A DNA stretch of 64,000 nucleotides from contig NZ_VHIB01000001.1 of the NCBI RefSeq assembly GCF_008087345.1, forward strand, positions 1,054,001 through 1,118,000. Reading direction: 5' to 3'. Shown in pieces: positions 30,326-38,144 of the stretch. Below the pieces are notes generated by a model, which ran no database searches, was not told where the DNA came from, and was given only the letters and a program-made list of their open reading frames with translations. Every line of letters begins with the position of its first letter. Position 1 is the stretch's first letter. This DNA is from Nocardioides caldifontis. Lineage in GTDB: Bacteria > Actinomycetota > Actinomycetes > Propionibacteriales > Nocardioidaceae. The translations under genes and the position numbers were made by a program.

Positions 30326-32572
30326 TCAGCCGGAGGCGGCAACCCCCAAGCCGGGGTGGTCGCTGAAGAACCCGTCCATCCCGGCGTCGAGGAAGACCCG
30401 GATCTCGCCGGCCAGGTCGCCCTGCTCCGCCGGCCCTCCGGCGCTGCGGAAGTCGACCGGGAGGAACTGGTTCTCGGCGCGGAAGGTCCACCCGTGCACC
30501 GTCAAGCCGGCCCGGTGCGCGTCGGCGATGACCGATGTCGGCTCACCCAGGGTGCCGTCCGGGTCGCGGGGGATCATCACGTCCTTGCAGGCCCCCAGCG
30601 CGTCGGCGTACCTGGCGATCCCCCTCAGTCCTGCCCGCGTCACGAGGTCCTCGTAGCGGCGCGGGTCGCCGGCGGCGACCAGGTCGTATGGCGCGCCGGA
30701 GCAGTTGACGAGCTGCGCGATGGTGATAGGGGTCCTGCGCGCGAGCTCGCGCAGGTTGCTCGTCTCGAAGCTCTGGATGATCACCGGAGCGCGCTTCCCT
30801 GCCATCCCGTTGCGGCGCAGCTCCGCGAGCAACGGCTCCTCCAAGGACAGCCCGGCATCGTCGAAGTAGGTCGGGTGCTTCGTCTCCGGGTAGACACCGA
30901 CCTCCTTGCCGTCGCAGGTGCGTGAGTGCCGGGCCAGGTCGAGCACCTCGTCGAAGGTCGGCACCTGGTAGCGGCCGTCGAAGGCGGTGTTGCCCGGACG
31001 GACAGCGGGGATGCGCTCCTTCGCACGGAGCGTGCGGAGCTCCGCGAGCGTGAAGTCCTCGGTGAACCACCCCGTCACCTGCACCCCGTCGATGGTCTTG
31101 GTCGTACGGCGGTCGGCGAACTCGGGATGGTCGGCGACGTCCGTCGTGCCGCCGATCTCGTTCTCGTGGCGCGCCACCAGCACGCCGTCCTTGGTCGAGA
31201 CCAGGTCCGGCTCGATGTAGTCGGCGCACTGCAGGATGGCCTGCTCGTAGGCCGCCAGGGTGTGTTCGGGCCGGTGGCCGCTCGCGCCGCGGTGGGCGAC
31301 GACAGTCGGGCCCGCACTGGCCGGGCGGAGCTTCCGCAGCTCGACGACGGCCATCTCGGTGTCGTCGGGCGTGCCCGGGATGCGTGCGCTGTTGCCGGGG
31401 TAGTTGTTGTCGTTGCCGATGAGCAGCCGGCCGCCCTCCAGCAGCAGGACGGTCTCGAAGGACTGCACCGGGAGCGACCACGACGCCCCGGTGCCGTAGC
31501 CGGTCCCCTCGCCGATGCCGTAGGGGTTCGCGATGCCGAGGGCGTCGAGCACGAGTTCCTTCTCGACGTAGCCCTCGCGGTCACGTCGCGCCAGGTCCAC
31601 TTCGTAGACGCGCTTGGTGACCGACGCCGGGCCCTCGAAGTCGTCGCGCTCGATGAGCAGCATGCGGCGGTTGCCCGTCATGAACGCGTCACCGATGACG
31701 TTCGCCTCCTGGTCTGTCTCGTAGGCCCAACGCTTGGCGGTGTACTTCCCTCGGCGGGTGTCGAACTCGTGGATCCAACGGCGCCGCTTCTGCGGGTCGT
31801 CGGCGAGCGCGCCCTCGACGACCGGGTAGAGGTAGCGGCCGCTCTTGCTCGCTGCCATCGCCTCGAACCCGCGGCTCGAGCCGACGCGTGGCTCCTCGCC
31901 GGGCTTCAGGTAGGGATTGGCGGGGGACTTGCCGACCGGGAAGGGGACCGGCGCCTGGAGCAGCTTGCCGGTGCGGTCCACGTGCAGCAGGAAGGGCCCG
32001 AACTCCTCACCGATCCAGAAGCTGCCGTCCTCGGCGCGGACGATCGACTCGATGTCGAAGTCGCCACCCGTGAGGAGCCTTTGCTTGCTGTCTCCGTTGA
32101 CGATGGGGAAGTCGATGCGGCGGTCTGGGTCGCGCAGCGACAGGTGGCGCAGCACCTCGATCTCGCCCCTGCCCCCCGTGCGCGTCTCCCACCGCGGCTC
32201 CACCAGGTAGACCCGGAGCAGGAAGTCGGCGGAGTTGCCCTTGGCGCCGAAGCCGTTGTCGGGCATCGCCCAGTAGGTGCCGTCGCCGTTGTCGACCATG
32301 CCGGAGAAGCCGGGGACGACCTGGCCGGGGAACGGGCCGTTGCGCCCGTTCGCCGGCGTCGCCTGGCTCCCGGAGGGCGGACCCTCCTCCAGGTGGTCGG
32401 CCGACAGGGTGGCGCGGGCGACCAGGGTGGGTCGGGTCGGAGGGTCGCCGTGGCCTCCCGGCCCACCGGGCGCCGCCGACGCGGAGGGCAGTCCGGAGGG
32501 AGACCAGGTGGGGGCGAGCAGGGCCGCGGCGACCGCCGCGGAGAGGATGAGGGGTGTTCGTGCGGTTCGCAT
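30326..32572 (-). CDS. Secreted esterase-like/phytase-like domain fused to glycerophosphodiester phosphodiesterase
   Basis: 748 residues from the ATG at 32572. A signal peptide (MRTARTPLILSAAVAAALLAP...ASAAP) directs export. Residues ~50-430 form the esterase-like-activity-of-phytase beta-propeller (GFSGMVDNGDGTYWAMPDNGFGAKGNSADF, IGEEFGPFLLHVDRTG). Residues ~440-745 are a GDPD TIM barrel with VVAHRGASGHRPEHTLAAYEQA, the EPDLVSTKDG metal ligand segment and the second catalytic His in ARHENEI. It should release phosphate-linked alcohols from extracellular glycerophosphodiesters or phytate, a phosphate-scavenging role. GC content falls slightly and codon choice is looser than in neighbours. No pho box was recognised upstream. 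Confidence 0.88.
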   Translation of the reverse strand: MRTARTPLILSAAVAAALLAPTWSPSGLPSASAAPGGPGGHGDPPTRPTLVARATLSADHLEEGPPSGSQATPANGRNGPFPGQVVPGFSGMVDNGDGTYWAMPDNGFGAKGNSADFLLRVYLVEPRWETRTGGRGEIEVLRHLSLRDPDRRIDFPIVNGDSKQRLLTGGDFDIESIVRAEDGSFWIGEEFGPFLLHVDRTGKLLQAPVPFPVGKSPANPYLKPGEEPRVGSSRGFEAMAASKSGRYLYPVVEGALADDPQKRRRWIHEFDTRRGKYTAKRWAYETDQEANVIGDAFMTGNRRMLLIERDDFEGPASVTKRVYEVDLARRDREGYVEKELVLDALGIANPYGIGEGTGYGTGASWSLPVQSFETVLLLEGGRLLIGNDNNYPGNSARIPGTPDDTEMAVVELRKLRPASAGPTVVAHRGASGHRPEHTLAAYEQAILQCADYIEPDLVSTKDGVLVARHENEIGGTTDVADHPEFADRRTTKTIDGVQVTGWFTEDFTLAELRTLRAKERIPAVRPGNTAFDGRYQVPTFDEVLDLARHSRTCDGKEVGVYPETKHPTYFDDAGLSLEEPLLAELRRNGMAGKRAPVIIQSFETSNLRELARRTPITIAQLVNCSGAPYDLVAAGDPRRYEDLVTRAGLRGIARYADALGACKDVMIPRDPDGTLGEPTSVIADAHRAGLTVHGWTFRAENQFLPVDFRSAGGPAEQGDLAGEIRVFLDAGMDGFFSDHPGLGVAASG

Positions 32573-32639
32573 GGCGACGATCCAAGGGAGCGCTGCCCAC
32601 CTGGGCCGGTCCCGCCACCGACGAGAGGGTGACAGCGCG

Positions 32640-33602
32640 ATGAACAGTGGGACGCGACGCGACGCCGGCGTGCTGAGGATCGGCGGCATGCTGTCCTCCC
32701 TGGCCGAGCGGCTCGACACGACGTACGGCGCGGTGGAGCTGCCGACCGACGACGACGTGAGCGAGGCCCTGGCGACTCACGGGCCGGGTGCCCGGGTGCT
32801 CGTCGTGTCCTACGGCCACCCCGTCGGGCGGCCCTTCCTCGAGGCGTTGCCCGACCTCGAGGCCGTCGTCAACTTCGGAGTCGGCTACGACAACATCGAC
32901 GTGGCCGCCGCACACGAACGAGGGATCGTCGTCGGCAACACGCCGGACGTGCTGAACGACAGCGTCGCCGAGCTGACCGTCGGACTTCTCCTCGACGTGC
33001 TGCGTCGGATGTCGGCGGGCGACCGCTACGTGCGTGCCGGCCGCTGGGAGAGCGGTGTCGCGTTCCCGCTCGCCCGCCAGCTCGCCGGCCGACGTGTCGG
33101 CATCGTCGGGATGGGTCGGATCGGGGCCGCGGTCGCACGCCGGCTGGAGCCGTTCGGCTGCGAGATCGGCTACCACAACCGGCGCGAGGTCGACGCGTCC
33201 CCGTACCGCTTCTTCGACTCCGCGCTCGCCCTCGCCGAGACCTCGGACGCGCTGGTCGTGCTCGCCCCCGCGACCCCCGAGACCCGCCACCTCGTCGACG
33301 CCGACGTGCTCTCCGCGCTGGGTCCCGACGGGGTGCTGGTCAACGTCGCGCGGGGCTCGCTGGTCGACGAGTGCGCGCTGCTGGAGGCGCTCCGGGCCGG
33401 GACCATCGCCGGCGCCGGGCTGGACGTCTACGCCGACGAGCCCCGCGTGCCGTCGGAGCTGTGGGAGCGTGATGACGTGGTGCTCCTGCCCCACGTCGGA
33501 AGCGCCACCCGTGAAGCCCGGGAGGCGATGGCCGGACTCGTGCTCGACAACGTCGAGGCGTTCCTGGCGTCCGGGTCGCTGGTGACTCCCGTGGAGGGAT
33601 GA
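32640..33602 (+). CDS. D-isomer-specific 2-hydroxyacid dehydrogenase
   Basis: 320 residues. The NAD-binding domain contains GRRVGIVGMGRIGAAVARRLEPFG, and the catalytic set is present: Arg in NVARGSLVD, Glu in DVYADEP and His in LLPHVGSATREAR. The substrate domain has NFGVGYDNIDVAAAHERGIVVGNTPDVLNDSVAE, typical of the hydroxypyruvate/glyoxylate reductase branch. The start is uncertain; ATG at 32640 is chosen, GTG 32670 and ATG 32688 are alternatives. Its stop overlaps the start of the next gene by 4 bp, so the two form an operon. It may reduce glyoxylate or another 2-oxoacid. Confidence 0.9.
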   Translation: MNSGTRRDAGVLRIGGMLSSLAERLDTTYGAVELPTDDDVSEALATHGPGARVLVVSYGHPVGRPFLEALPDLEAVVNFGVGYDNIDVAAAHERGIVVGNTPDVLNDSVAELTVGLLLDVLRRMSAGDRYVRAGRWESGVAFPLARQLAGRRVGIVGMGRIGAAVARRLEPFGCEIGYHNRREVDASPYRFFDSALALAETSDALVVLAPATPETRHLVDADVLSALGPDGVLVNVARGSLVDECALLEALRAGTIAGAGLDVYADEPRVPSELWERDDVVLLPHVGSATREAREAMAGLVLDNVEAFLASGSLVTPVEG

Positions 33603-35039: not shown

Positions 35040-35942
35040 TCAGGCGCGGGTGATCGCGACCAGCCGGTGGGACTGGCCCACGGAGCCGGCGGCCGCGCGG
35101 CAGGTGAGCTGCCGCCGCTCCCCGAGGTCGGTGTGCACCCGCACCCGCCACCGTTCACCGTCGACCTCGAAGACCGCGTCGGACCGGGTCGCGTGCCGGT
35201 GCAGTCCGACGAGCGCGAACGGGGCGGTGGTGTCGATGTCGAGGTGGCGGCGGAGGTACACCTCGGCGGCCTGGGCGAAGAACGGGTAGGCGCACCGGCC
35301 CCGCAGGTGGTCGAGGTCGAGCCGCCCCGACAGGTGCCGGGCGGCGAACCCGGCGGCGTCCTCCGGCTCGAGGCGCCCGTAGTAGAGCCCGTCCGGGAGC
35401 ACCAGCACGTTGCCGGCGAACCGGTCCCCGCCCATGTGCGAGACCTCCCAGGTGTGCTCGGGCGCCGCCTCGGCCAGCGCCGCGCACAGCGGCCGGCCGC
35501 GCTCGGCGCAGCAGGCGTCGTGACGGCCGTGCGTGCAGACCGCGAAGAGCGGCTGGTCCCACGCGGGCAGCCCGGGGGAGCGGCCGTCGCCGAGCCCCTC
35601 GAGCTCGAGGTCGAGCACCCCGGTGACGTCGTCGAGCAGGGCGCTCTGCGTCCAGGGCCGGTCGGTGTGGACGTACGCCGCGAAGACCCGCACCGGCCCT
35701 GCTGCGGACCGGCCGGGCCGGCGGACCAGCAGGGGCCGGACCCGGTTGTGTCGTTCCAGCGACAGCAGCCGCTCCTTCACCTCGTCCGGGAGCCGGCTGT
35801 CCGGCACGGCGTCGACCCCCCAGGGGCCCGGCGCCTCGACCAGCAGGAAGGCGCGCACGGTCGAGGCGGTGCCCTCCAGCGGCTCGCCGAGCGCCCGGCT
35901 CGCCCCCGAGCACCGGTACGCCGGAGCGGGGTCAGCGGTCAC
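35040..35942 (-). CDS. Sucrase/ferredoxin-like (thioredoxin-fold 2Fe-2S) protein
   Basis: 300 residues from a GTG at 35942. The family name comes from an old annotation; the conserved core is a thioredoxin-like ferredoxin with FAVCTHGRHDACCAERGRPLC (clustered Cys), EVSHMGGDRFAGNVLVLPDGLYYGRL, and an N-terminal YRCSGASRALGEPL. An iron-sulfur cluster is expected. The C-terminal 75 residues add a small beta domain (RWRVRVHTDLGERRQL). Its start overlaps the stop of the cupin oxygenase by 11 bp, so it is translated with it and may supply electrons or protect that enzyme. It is the last gene of the peptide cluster. Confidence 0.82.
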   Translation of the reverse strand: MTADPAPAYRCSGASRALGEPLEGTASTVRAFLLVEAPGPWGVDAVPDSRLPDEVKERLLSLERHNRVRPLLVRRPGRSAAGPVRVFAAYVHTDRPWTQSALLDDVTGVLDLELEGLGDGRSPGLPAWDQPLFAVCTHGRHDACCAERGRPLCAALAEAAPEHTWEVSHMGGDRFAGNVLVLPDGLYYGRLEPEDAAGFAARHLSGRLDLDHLRGRCAYPFFAQAAEVYLRRHLDIDTTAPFALVGLHRHATRSDAVFEVDGERWRVRVHTDLGERRQLTCRAAAGSVGQSHRLVAITRA

Positions 35943-37062
35943 GGGCGATCCGGAGCAGCCCCTCGCGCACGAGGCGGCGGACCACGACGAGCCGGCTTCC
36001 CTCGTCGAGCCACGGCGCCAGCTCGCCGACGGTGAACGAGGGGTGGTCGCGCACGAACTCCAGCGGCGCGCGGAGCCGGGCCGGCATCCGGAGCTGCCGG
36101 TCGCCGAGGAGCACGACGAGCCGCTCCGCCTCCTCGCGGAGCACGCACGCCGACGTCGGCCGGCGCTCGACGCGCGTGGCGTCGTCGAGGTCCGCGAGGC
36201 CGACGAGGTCGACGAGCCCGCCGGCCAGGACAGGGGTCCGGTCGGTGAGGAACCGGGTCGCGTGCGCGGTCGCGAACAGGTCGGGGTCGGCGTCGGCCAG
36301 CTGCCGGGCCAGCCCGTCGAGCCGGGTGCCGAGGGCCGCGGAGAGCGTCGCCGGGTCGTCGAGGAAGCCGGCCGGCAGCGGGGCGTCGTACTCCTCCTCG
36401 GCGAGCAGCCCGTCGATGACCGACCGGAGCGCCTGGCGCCAGGTGACCTGGTTGATGCCGAGGGTCACGTGGAGGGAGGTGACCTCCTGGCTGCGGGCGG
36501 AGTGCGGGGTGCCGGTCGGGAGGTACATCGACAGCCCCGGCTCGAGGAGCACCTCGCGCTCCTGGTCGCCCTCGACGATCTCCCACAGCTTGTGCCCGTG
36601 GGTCTGGAAGACGAAGACGTCGTGGGTGTCGCTGTGCCGGGCGAACCCCTGCGACCCCGGCGGGGTGAGGTACGCGTTGGCCTGGCACGGGTGGCCGAGC
36701 TCGAGCTCCAGGGCGCGGACGAGCTCGGTCAGCGGGGGCCAGTAGCGGTGCAGCCCCTGGAGGACCACGGTGGCGCCGCCGTCGAACAGCGCGAGCACCT
36801 TGCGGCCGTCGACGAGCCCGGTGAGCGGGGCGCCGGCGAGCGTGGCCGACCGGGTGAACTGCGACGACGGCAGGACCGTGCCGTCCTGGACGACCCGGAG
36901 CGCCGGGGTGCGCAGCGCCGACGAGGTCAGCAGCCGGTCGACGTCGTCGAGGGAGAGCAGACCGACCAGCCGCTCGGGGTCGGTGTGGTGCAGGTGGACG
37001 TGGGACGCCCAGACCTTCTGCGCGAAGGTCTGGGCGTCACCGCTGAGCAGGTCGAGGGCCAC
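35932..37062 (-). CDS. JmjC/cupin-fold 2-oxoglutarate-dependent oxygenase
   Basis: 376 residues; the only reasonable start is the GTG at 37062, 11 bp after the repeat-peptide stop. The cupin/JmjC core has the metal triad: His143 and Asp145 in GFARHSDTHDVF and His187 in PTGTPHSARS, with the sheet segment HGHKLWEIVEGDQE between. The sequence resembles the ribosomal-oxygenase branch (YcfD/NO66) that hydroxylates protein side chains, with a C-terminal winged-helix-like half (FTVGELAPWLDEGSRLVVVRRLVREGLLRI). It is coupled to a 78-residue Asp-rich peptide before it and a ferredoxin-like gene after it. Inference: it hydroxylates that peptide or a ribosomal protein. It lacks a signal peptide. Confidence 0.85.
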   Translation of the reverse strand: MALDLLSGDAQTFAQKVWASHVHLHHTDPERLVGLLSLDDVDRLLTSSALRTPALRVVQDGTVLPSSQFTRSATLAGAPLTGLVDGRKVLALFDGGATVVLQGLHRYWPPLTELVRALELELGHPCQANAYLTPPGSQGFARHSDTHDVFVFQTHGHKLWEIVEGDQEREVLLEPGLSMYLPTGTPHSARSQEVTSLHVTLGINQVTWRQALRSVIDGLLAEEEYDAPLPAGFLDDPATLSAALGTRLDGLARQLADADPDLFATAHATRFLTDRTPVLAGGLVDLVGLADLDDATRVERRPTSACVLREEAERLVVLLGDRQLRMPARLRAPLEFVRDHPSFTVGELAPWLDEGSRLVVVRRLVREGLLRIARDR

Positions 37063-37073
37063 GCGGTGGCCCG

Positions 37074-37310
37074 TCAGGCGTCGGTGCCGTCGGCGTCCCC
37101 GCCGTCCGAGGAGTCGCCGTCGGTCGTGTCGGTGGAGTCGCCGTCGCCCGAGCCGCCGTCGGTGCCGTCCGCGTCGCCGCCGTCCGTGCCGTCGGCGTCG
37201 CCGCTGTCGGTGCCGTCGGAGTCGCCGAGCCCCATCTGCGAGGGCCCGTCGGGGCCGCCCGTGGTCTCGATGTCCTCGTCGCTGACCGGCTCGTTGGGAG
37301 TGGTGGTCAT
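37074..37310 (-). CDS. 78-residue Asp/Gly/Thr repeat peptide, possible modified-peptide precursor
   Basis: ATG at 37310 with AGAGGAG seven bases before, a strong ribosome site. The first 27 residues (MTTTPNEPVSDEDIETTGGP and on) look like a leader; residues 28-78 are built from about six GDxDGTD-like units (GDSDGTD, GDADGTD twice, GDGDSTD, DGDSSD, GDADGTD). There is no Lys, Arg, Cys, His or aromatic residue and the net charge is very negative. The next gene, 11 bp on, is a JmjC/cupin oxygenase, which makes a ribosomally made, post-translationally hydroxylated peptide an attractive idea. Alternatively the DxDGxD units bind calcium, as in thrombospondin-type-3 repeats, and the protein is a small acidic Ca2+ binder. 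I do not recognise a described family. Confidence 0.75.
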   Translation of the reverse strand: MTTTPNEPVSDEDIETTGGPDGPSQMGLGDSDGTDSGDADGTDGGDADGTDGGSGDGDSTDTTDGDSSDGGDADGTDA

Positions 37311-37436
37311 GACGCTCCTCTCTGGGATGGGCGGCGCGGGGTGCGCCGACGTACGGGGGACTTACCCAGGAGTCTGGCAGCCAAGCGGCTCCCCGGACAG
37401 GGTCGACGAGCGGCCGCGGGCGGGCGCGGCGACGGG

Positions 37437-38144
37437 TCAGAGGCTGCGGCGGCGCAGGTGCACGACGGCGCCGGACTCGCCGACGCGGTGGCCGAGCACC
37501 TCGAGCTCGAGCGCGGGGTCCTCCACCTCGCGCTCGACCGCGCGCACCTGGTCGACCCCGGCCACCTGGAGCAGGGCGGCGCCCCAGGGGAGGAGGTGCT
37601 CCCCGGTGACCCGGAGCGCCGTGCGGACCAGGTCGAGCCCGTCGGTGCCGCCGTCGATCGCGTGCAGCGGGTCGTCGGGGTGGTTGCCGCAGTCGTCGCT
37701 GGGAACCCACGGCGGGTCGGCGATCACGAGGGCGAAACGCTCCCGCGGGTCGAGGCACCGCTCCATCGGGGCGCAACGGATGTCGACCTGCTGCGAGAGC
37801 TGGGCGTGCTGGGCGTTGAGCCCGGCGTAGCGGCAGGCCACCTCGTTGCGGTCGACCATCAGCAGCCGCCGGTCGCTGCCGAGGACCGCCCGGAGCCCGA
37901 TGTGGCCGACCCCGGCACACAGCTCGAGCACGTCGCCGGCGGGGAGGGAGGGGAGCAGCTCGCGCGCCCAGTCCGACTGGAGCACGGTCCACGGCCGGGG
38001 GCGGAGCACGCGCTCGTCGAAGGCGACCGCCAGCCCGCCGAAGTCGGTGATCTCCGTGACCGGTGCGACGATCCCCGTCGTACGGTGTGCGGCCGGGCGC
38101 ATCGCACTCCTGCTGTGCAGCACCCTGACGTCCTCGACGGTCAC
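37437..38144 (-). CDS. SAM-dependent methyltransferase (small-domain/PrmC-RsmC-like)
   Basis: 235 residues from a GTG at 38144 (ATG at 38102 possible). The SAM motif VLELCAGVGHIGLRAV is near residue 72, the acidic ribose loop VDRNEVACRYAGLNA follows, and motif IV reads IADPPWVPS, an (N/D)PP(Y/W) motif found in N-methyltransferases acting on protein Gln/Asn or rRNA bases. It is upstream of, and on the same strand as, the repeat-peptide cluster with a 126-bp gap. It might modify the peptide, or be independent. No membrane or signal sequence. Confidence 0.8.
   Translation of the reverse strand: MTVEDVRVLHSRSAMRPAAHRTTGIVAPVTEITDFGGLAVAFDERVLRPRPWTVLQSDWARELLPSLPAGDVLELCAGVGHIGLRAVLGSDRRLLMVDRNEVACRYAGLNAQHAQLSQQVDIRCAPMERCLDPRERFALVIADPPWVPSDDCGNHPDDPLHAIDGGTDGLDLVRTALRVTGEHLLPWGAALLQVAGVDQVRAVEREVEDPALELEVLGHRVGESGAVVHLRRRSL

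Follow-up and report, generated by a model that had tools for sequence, protein, structure and literature searches.

An aspartate-repeat peptide encoded beside a NO66-like JmjC oxygenase: a probable three-gene peptide-modifying cassette in the actinobacterial phylum

What does a JmjC oxygenase act on when a small, highly repetitive acidic peptide is encoded directly in front of it? The question is raised by a locus in the 64,000-nt stretch of Nocardioides caldifontis DNA analysed here (“the window”: assembly GCF_008087345.1, contig NZ_VHIB01000001.1, positions 1,054,001–1,118,000 of the forward strand), in which three genes follow one another on the minus strand: that of a 78-residue peptide, then, after a gap of 11 bp, that of a JmjC (cupin) oxygenase of the ribosomal oxygenase (ROX) type, and finally that of a Suc_Fer-like protein, which overlaps the oxygenase gene by 11 bp (Table 1). 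The peptide coordinates, the ribosome-binding site, the gap, and the overlap were all as given in a preliminary description of the locus. For the bacterial NO66-like JmjC proteins in this clade, no substrate assignment is known to us. Our answer, which draws on sequence comparison and predicted structures, is that the three genes probably form a dedicated peptide-modifying cassette, in which the JmjC protein would hydroxylate aspartates of the co-encoded peptide.

The loci were collected by similarity to the window JmjC protein from three sources: 46 loci on genome contigs, 57 of 396 genomes searched phylum-wide (E 1e-10), and 103 of 197 genomes of the family (E 1e-15); the sample leans toward Nocardioidaceae. 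Reduction at 99.5% identity gave 181 JmjC proteins, of which three at contig ends (L038, L073, and L091) were set aside, leaving 178 with readable upstream DNA. An Asp-rich repeat peptide is encoded immediately upstream in 167 of these 178 loci; a script found 166, from which L134 (a false call) and L125 (acidic, non-repetitive) were removed, and to which L238, L088, and L075 were added by eye. A fixed composition test, applied in a strict and a loose form, was passed at 163/178 and 166/178 JmjC loci, versus 1/571 and 10/571 control open reading frames (ORFs), the controls being ORFs of at least 200 residues from the same loci, on the JmjC strand and at a distance of over 1 kb from the start of the JmjC gene. 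The two genes lie very close together: the median gap is 3 bp, 156 of the 164 scripted peptides end within 50 bp of the JmjC gene, and 40 of the 164 overlap it. Seen from the peptide side, a peptide match was obtained in 56 family genomes, and in 53 of them a JmjC gene adjoins it on the same strand; the non-adjacent rows (4/59) comprise three weak matches (E 6e-4 to 7e-3) and a second copy on another contig of genome G166 (E 1e-4). The third gene follows the same pattern, with Suc_Fer next to JmjC in 152 of the 159 peptide-bearing loci that allow a verdict (eight further loci end too early) and in none of the 11 JmjC loci without a peptide. These counts support the peptide and the oxygenase as a conserved pair across the actinobacterial phylum. 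The preliminary description had asked for such a search of peptide–oxygenase co-occurrence, and had named an oxygenase occurring widely without a peptide gene as the outcome that would speak against a coupled system; within this JmjC clade the oxygenase is not common without the peptide.

The pairing also extends to the kind of peptide. When 81 JmjC proteins (L140 and L247 not among them) were placed on a maximum-likelihood tree, all 17 rows with a type II peptide fall in one clade (support 100/99), which also contains L125, and all 53 rows with a type I peptide fall in a second (83/85), together with two contig-end rows and the long-branched L115. The node joining types I and II has a support of 82/81, and the peptide labels change 7 times on the tree versus 26.2 times when shuffled. 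The two peptide types thus match two JmjC clades. Neither clade takes in six more peptide-less rows or the doubtful L134, several of which have long branches; the peptide-less JmjC paralogues L136, L138–L142, L247, and L248, plus L134, were treated as not belonging to the family. One of these paralogues, the distant L136 (G547), has no Asp-repeat peptide and adjoins a TfuA-like gene (PF07812, E 9.8e-29), and is perhaps another JmjC-linked peptide-modification locus. Distant JmjC matches were also found in 24 plasmid records, all below 60% identity and, among the matches listed, at 34.8–37.1%.

The enzyme itself is, according to its model, a full-length homologue of the ROX proteins NO66 and MINA53, with a JmjC double-stranded β-helix, an HxD…H triad, and a C-terminal winged helix. 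It matches JmjC_2 (PF08007) in Pfam at E 1.3e-18, and the ligands His143, Asp145, and His187, described earlier as intact, are invariant in 28/28 aligned homologues. The structure predicted from a 28-homologue input has a mean predicted local distance difference test (pLDDT) score of 93.6. Its top solved-structure match is NO66 over residues 1–375 (Z 27.2, 359 residues aligned, root-mean-square deviation 5.6), followed by MINA53 (Z 26.1), YcfD-like enzymes (18–19), and Bacillus subtilis YxbC (17.8); profile comparison gives E 2.4e-26 for NO66 and 1.1e-8 for YcfD. In NCBIfam no fitting model was found for the JmjC family, 3-hydroxyanthranilate dioxygenase models weakly matching at most 3 of the 28 members.

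Such likeness invites the reading that the JmjC protein is the ribosomal oxygenase of this lineage and hydroxylates a ribosomal protein like NO66 (RIOX1), MINA53 (RIOX2), and YcfD, and that the acidic peptide is an unmodified, co-expressed inhibitor, decoy, or stabiliser. The full-length fold (JmjC, helical, and winged-helix parts) and the fact that this is the sole JmjC_2 match in the genome speak for it. A peptide co-encoded in 167/178 loci, with a core built of many similar units, speaks against it, and no JmjC match at E 1e-15 was found in 94 of the 197 sampled family genomes, so the protein does not serve the family as a housekeeping enzyme. We consider this reading improbable. Known ROX substrates are His or Arg residues of ribosomal proteins, as summarised in PMC6006756, whereas the probable substrate here is an Asp-repeat peptide encoded next door; that the peptide is what the JmjC protein acts on seems to us very likely.

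What in the peptide would be modified? The preliminary description had counted about six imperfect units, which is fair: a DNA pattern for GDxDGTD matches four times in the peptide gene and only once elsewhere in the 4.8-Mb genome. The homologous peptides fall into type I, with units such as GDADGTD and GDATDTTDGDAS, and type II, with repeats of the form EGPADGG…DGGADGGA. Some members of the type I clade have divergent units (GAGDAAGDG in L084, SADGTDQGVTGGTYGPRDA in L087, and PTEDDENLDAPGEHSQDTGDE in L119). A further peptide, that of L217 (G028), carries a leader and accompanies a type I-clade JmjC protein; its core, EGPADSVEG…DGVDGDGSDGDATD, seems intermediate between types I and II. The absence of Lys, Arg, Cys, His, and aromatic residues pointed out earlier holds for the window peptide, though not for the whole family. 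Neither Pfam nor NCBIfam has a model for the window peptide or for five homologues (from L133, L096, L043, L119, and L146). A single match, of a daptide model to the L119 peptide, stayed below threshold (15.8 bits, cut-off 25) and was rejected.

Asp is the common denominator. It makes up 30% of the core in type I, and its spacing is highly regular: in 129 type I peptides (L134, L125, L074, and L042 omitted), successive Asp residues follow at a step of 2 or 3 residues in 91.5% of instances versus 37% in shuffles, adjacent Asp residues account for 1.5% of steps versus 31%, and 94% of Asp residues are followed by G, A, S, or T. In type II, the usual Asp-to-Asp distance is 4, or else 8 or more, residues. 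The last 36 residues contain Asp in 131/131 type I and 33/33 type II peptides, Thr in 128/131 and 30/33, and Ser in 117/131 and 31/33. The preliminary description had guessed at hydroxylation of Asp or Thr; since Asp is present in 164/164 peptides, while Thr is absent from 6/164 and found at most once in 36/164, Asp would be the best common target and Thr alone an unlikely one. Ser as the sole target is weakened likewise, with 16/164 peptides lacking it. An extreme case is L084, which after its leader has 22 Asp, one Thr, and one Ser. Characterised ROX enzymes hydroxylate the side-chain β-carbon of a bound peptide stretch, and by analogy a ROX-type site could be engaged repeatedly by a chain that offers an Asp every 2–3 residues, seldom two in a row and with small residues on either side. 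On balance we favour Asp as the modified residue, with less assurance than we have in the peptide as the substrate.

The same repeats have been read differently, as calcium-binding units (DxDGxD) that remain unmodified while the oxygenase acts on something else. Although DADGTD units do resemble the DxDxDG of calcium loops, and the core is rich in Asp, the type II repeats, which accompany the same enzyme family, contain no DxDGxD, and neither do several type I members (L084 and L119); the tight linkage to an oxygenase would also be left unexplained. Calcium binding as the family-wide function, put forward in the preliminary description as the competing explanation, is thus disfavoured because of the type II repeats, and we regard it as highly improbable, while metal binding in a general sense may still apply to these peptides.

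In type I, the N-terminal part of the peptide evolves differently from the core. A leader motif is present in 129/131 type I peptides. Close relatives retain the leader and alter the repeat number: where two JmjC proteins are at least 84% identical (67 pairs), peptide length is equal in only 9 pairs and differs in 58, and in the 25 such pairs listed the leaders are nearly identical. On the enzyme side, the secondary structure of the model (DSSP), compared with the order of elements outlined in PMC12710340, indicates an RRE-like arrangement (RRE, recognition element of ribosomally synthesised and post-translationally modified peptides, RiPPs) at residues 307–366, with an extra short strand at 342–344. 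The JmjC protein thus has, in the model, an RRE-like C-terminal domain. To probe docking, peptide and enzyme were joined for prediction as an artificial read-through fusion, based on 14 rows with compatible frames; this gave a leader block with pLDDT of about 59–70 and a strand at residues 15–18, followed by a disordered core at about 30; with respect to leader docking this is only a hint.

JmjC enzymes in RiPP pathways, and RRE-like domains on JmjC proteins, are already known. BipG is described as a JmjC γ-Orn hydroxylase acting on the RiPP precursor of biphenomycin (PMC12707348), and PbsQ and BpmG as related JmjC/cupin hydroxylases of biphenomycin-type RiPPs (PMC12257519). All three resemble the present enzyme as JmjC-family hydroxylases with a cluster-encoded precursor peptide; by its description, BipG differs in that one Orn is hydroxylated among many modifications, whereas here there is no other general modifying enzyme and the core is an Asp repeat. 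PMC12710340 (2025) describes β3-α3 RRE-like folds on JmjC (PF08007) proteins of fish and algae, with the closest bacterial homologues in RiPP-like contexts; these homologues may include the present family, although the description, so far as it goes, gives no peptide, bacterial family, or Asp repeat. Neither a name nor a description of the cassette was found in the open-access literature searched, which suggests that it is undescribed.

The wider neighbourhood is sparse. Clustering of 3,282 ORFs (at least 110 residues) from 167 loci (164 with a scripted peptide and three at contig ends; flanks mostly 1.5–4 kb) gave only JmjC (159 loci), Suc_Fer (149 loci), and antisense frames as general clusters. 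After these, the largest clusters on the sense strand reach 13 and 9 loci, the smaller of the two resembling ABC-transporter ATPases by eye. Within these flanks there is no generally conserved protease or transporter neighbour; since the flanks are mostly 1.5–4 kb long, distant helper genes may exist. Upstream of the peptide gene, the motif GGGTA[ACT] occurs in 45 of 88 regions from Nocardioidaceae-like type I loci (shuffles: mean 4.05, maximum 10; reverse strand: 7), and alignment on it reveals a G[TG]TT-like box, not selected for, that starts mostly 19–20 bases upstream. In the window, GCTTGG-N13-GGGTAA is the only two-box match on either strand, and fits the SigB-type pattern (GTTT/GNNT-like −35 and GGGTA(C/T/A/G)-like −10 hexamers 12–15 bp apart). 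The SigB-dependent Streptomyces coelicolor promoter SCO1566p is given as GCTTGG-N13-GGGTAG in PMC8346170, and the SigB-type −10 as GGGTAC/G in PMC3184153. A SigBFG-type sigma factor above cut-off is encoded in the genome. The motif suggests that in Nocardioidaceae the operon may be under stress control via this predicted SigB-type promoter.

These observations bear on whether the locus makes a secreted RiPP natural product, through leader-guided hydroxylation followed by leader removal and export by enzymes encoded elsewhere. The resemblance to a RiPP locus seen in the preliminary description is partly supported by the conserved pair, the leader–core architecture of type I, and the rapid change in repeat number, and the RRE-like domain and the biphenomycin precedent point the same way; it is weakened by the lack of a generally conserved protease or transporter within the flanks (an ABC-transporter-ATPase-like cluster in 9 loci apart), the 21/33 type II peptides that lack the leader motif, and the stress-type promoter in Nocardioidaceae. 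A secreted product is, in our view, unlikely. Because no exporter or protease is generally conserved, and because of the SigB-type promoter in Nocardioidaceae, action inside the cell would be likeliest, but an intracellular stress role of the product is a tentative proposal, held at somewhat less than even confidence.

The third protein may serve the enzyme's iron. It matches PF06999, the Suc_Fer-like family of the yeast proteins Apd1 and Aim32, in Pfam above the curated cut-off (E 1.1e-18; 68.4 bits, cut-off 34.9), and PF06999 and PF08007 each have one match in the genome, both at this locus. Cys11, Cys136, Cys144, Cys145, His169, Asp173, and Cys281 are conserved in at least 98% of 147 aligned homologues, and His169-x-x-x-Asp173 in at least 99%. 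Apd1 and Aim32 have a His pair, HxxxH, in contrast to the His–Asp pair found here; with Asp173 replacing the second His, an unusual cluster ligand set is possible.

Taken together, the mechanism that we propose would run as follows. As a ROX-type oxygenase dependent on Fe(II) and 2-oxoglutarate, the JmjC protein would introduce hydroxyl groups at many Asp residues along the core, most likely on the β-carbon. The acidic leader motif, where present, would probably be what docks, plausibly as an extra strand that joins the RRE-like C-terminal domain of the enzyme, while the disordered core passes through the active site. The role of the Suc_Fer-like protein would probably be to keep the active-site iron reduced (ferrous) or supply iron. 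The product would be a very hydrophilic, polyhydroxylated polyanion whose action is most likely intracellular and stress-related; it might, for instance, buffer metals or give protection as a disordered peptide.

Several observations weigh against this mechanism or narrow it. Seven peptide-bearing loci (L084, L087, L085, L074, L128, L137, and L119) have room for a Suc_Fer gene but no recognisable one, and two JmjC loci inside the clades, L115 (G564, type I clade) and L125 (G335, type II clade), have neither a repeat peptide nor a Suc_Fer match; in L125 the acidic non-repetitive ORF stands upstream in place of the repeat peptide. None of the 164 peptides lacks both Thr and Ser, so a Thr/Ser target, though weakened, may still apply. 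A leader may not be required everywhere, its motif being present in only 12/33 type II peptides. No enrichment of the promoter motif is seen in the remaining type I loci (5/39, shuffles up to 5) or in type II loci (2/33, shuffles up to 2), and stress control is therefore proposed for one family only. Finally, little confidence attaches to the model of the fusion (mean pLDDT 76.2, predicted template modelling score 0.55, other models lower), which shows no interface.

The features of the locus are collected in Table 1. G + C in the peptide gene is 0.69/0.60/0.99 by codon position, and the long antisense ORFs over the locus look like by-products of high-G + C codons. Across 88 homologous upstream regions, the 7-mer met most often is an AGGAGGA-type site near −10. 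An upstream methyltransferase gene at 37437–38144 (minus strand) was considered as a fourth cassette member and rejected: its matches barely exceed the cut-off, and it is not a general neighbour elsewhere. On the same strand, at 30326–32719, the window holds a 797-residue ORF with a phytase-like esterase domain and a glycerophosphodiester phosphodiesterase domain.

Table 1. Features of the peptide–JmjC–Suc_Fer locus, in positions of the window.
Feature	Position	Strand	Basis
SigB-type promoter-like site: GCTTGG 37386–37381, 13-bp spacer, GGGTAA 37367–37362	37362..37386	−	Two-box pattern
Ribosome-binding site GAGGAG of the peptide gene	37315..37320	−	Sequence
Peptide gene, 78 residues, acidic repeat, putative substrate, type I	37074..37310	−	ATG start; equivalent position in 167/178 homologous loci
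Leader motif VSDEDIETT, peptide residues 9–17	37260..37286	−	Leader motif in 129/131 type I and 12/33 type II peptides
Repeat core, peptide residues 29–78, GDxDGTD and GDSTDTTDGDSSD units	37077..37226	−	Sequence; Asp spacing in the family
JmjC (cupin) oxygenase, ROX type, 376 residues, GTG start	35932..37062	−	PF08007; model; NO66 match; invariant ligands
Iron ligands His143, Asp145, His187	36634..36636, 36628..36630, 36502..36504	−	Invariant in aligned homologues
RRE-like C-terminal part of the JmjC protein	35935..36174	−	DSSP on the model; order of RRE elements as outlined in PMC12710340
Suc_Fer-like protein (thioredoxin-fold ferredoxin family), 300 residues, GTG start	35040..35942	−	PF06999

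The locus thus offers a probable substrate encoded beside its enzyme in well over 100 sampled genomes, and one small enough for direct mass spectrometry. Confirmation would establish multi-site Asp hydroxylation as a new activity on peptides, would offer a route to β-hydroxy-aspartate polymers, and would place a modified disordered peptide behind a promoter of the stress type. It would also bear on a common origin of ribosomal oxygenases and RiPP recognition domains. A bolder proposal, which we consider doubtful as a whole, is that these peptides are phylum-wide intracellular stress peptides: ribosomally made Asp-repeat polyanions, hydroxylated at multiple Asp residues by a bacterial NO66 relative via its RRE-like domain, and serving as metal chelators or protective disordered polymers. 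If true, this would suggest a shared ancestry of human NO66 and MINA53 with peptide-modifying enzymes, and a relationship of their winged helix to leader-recognition domains.

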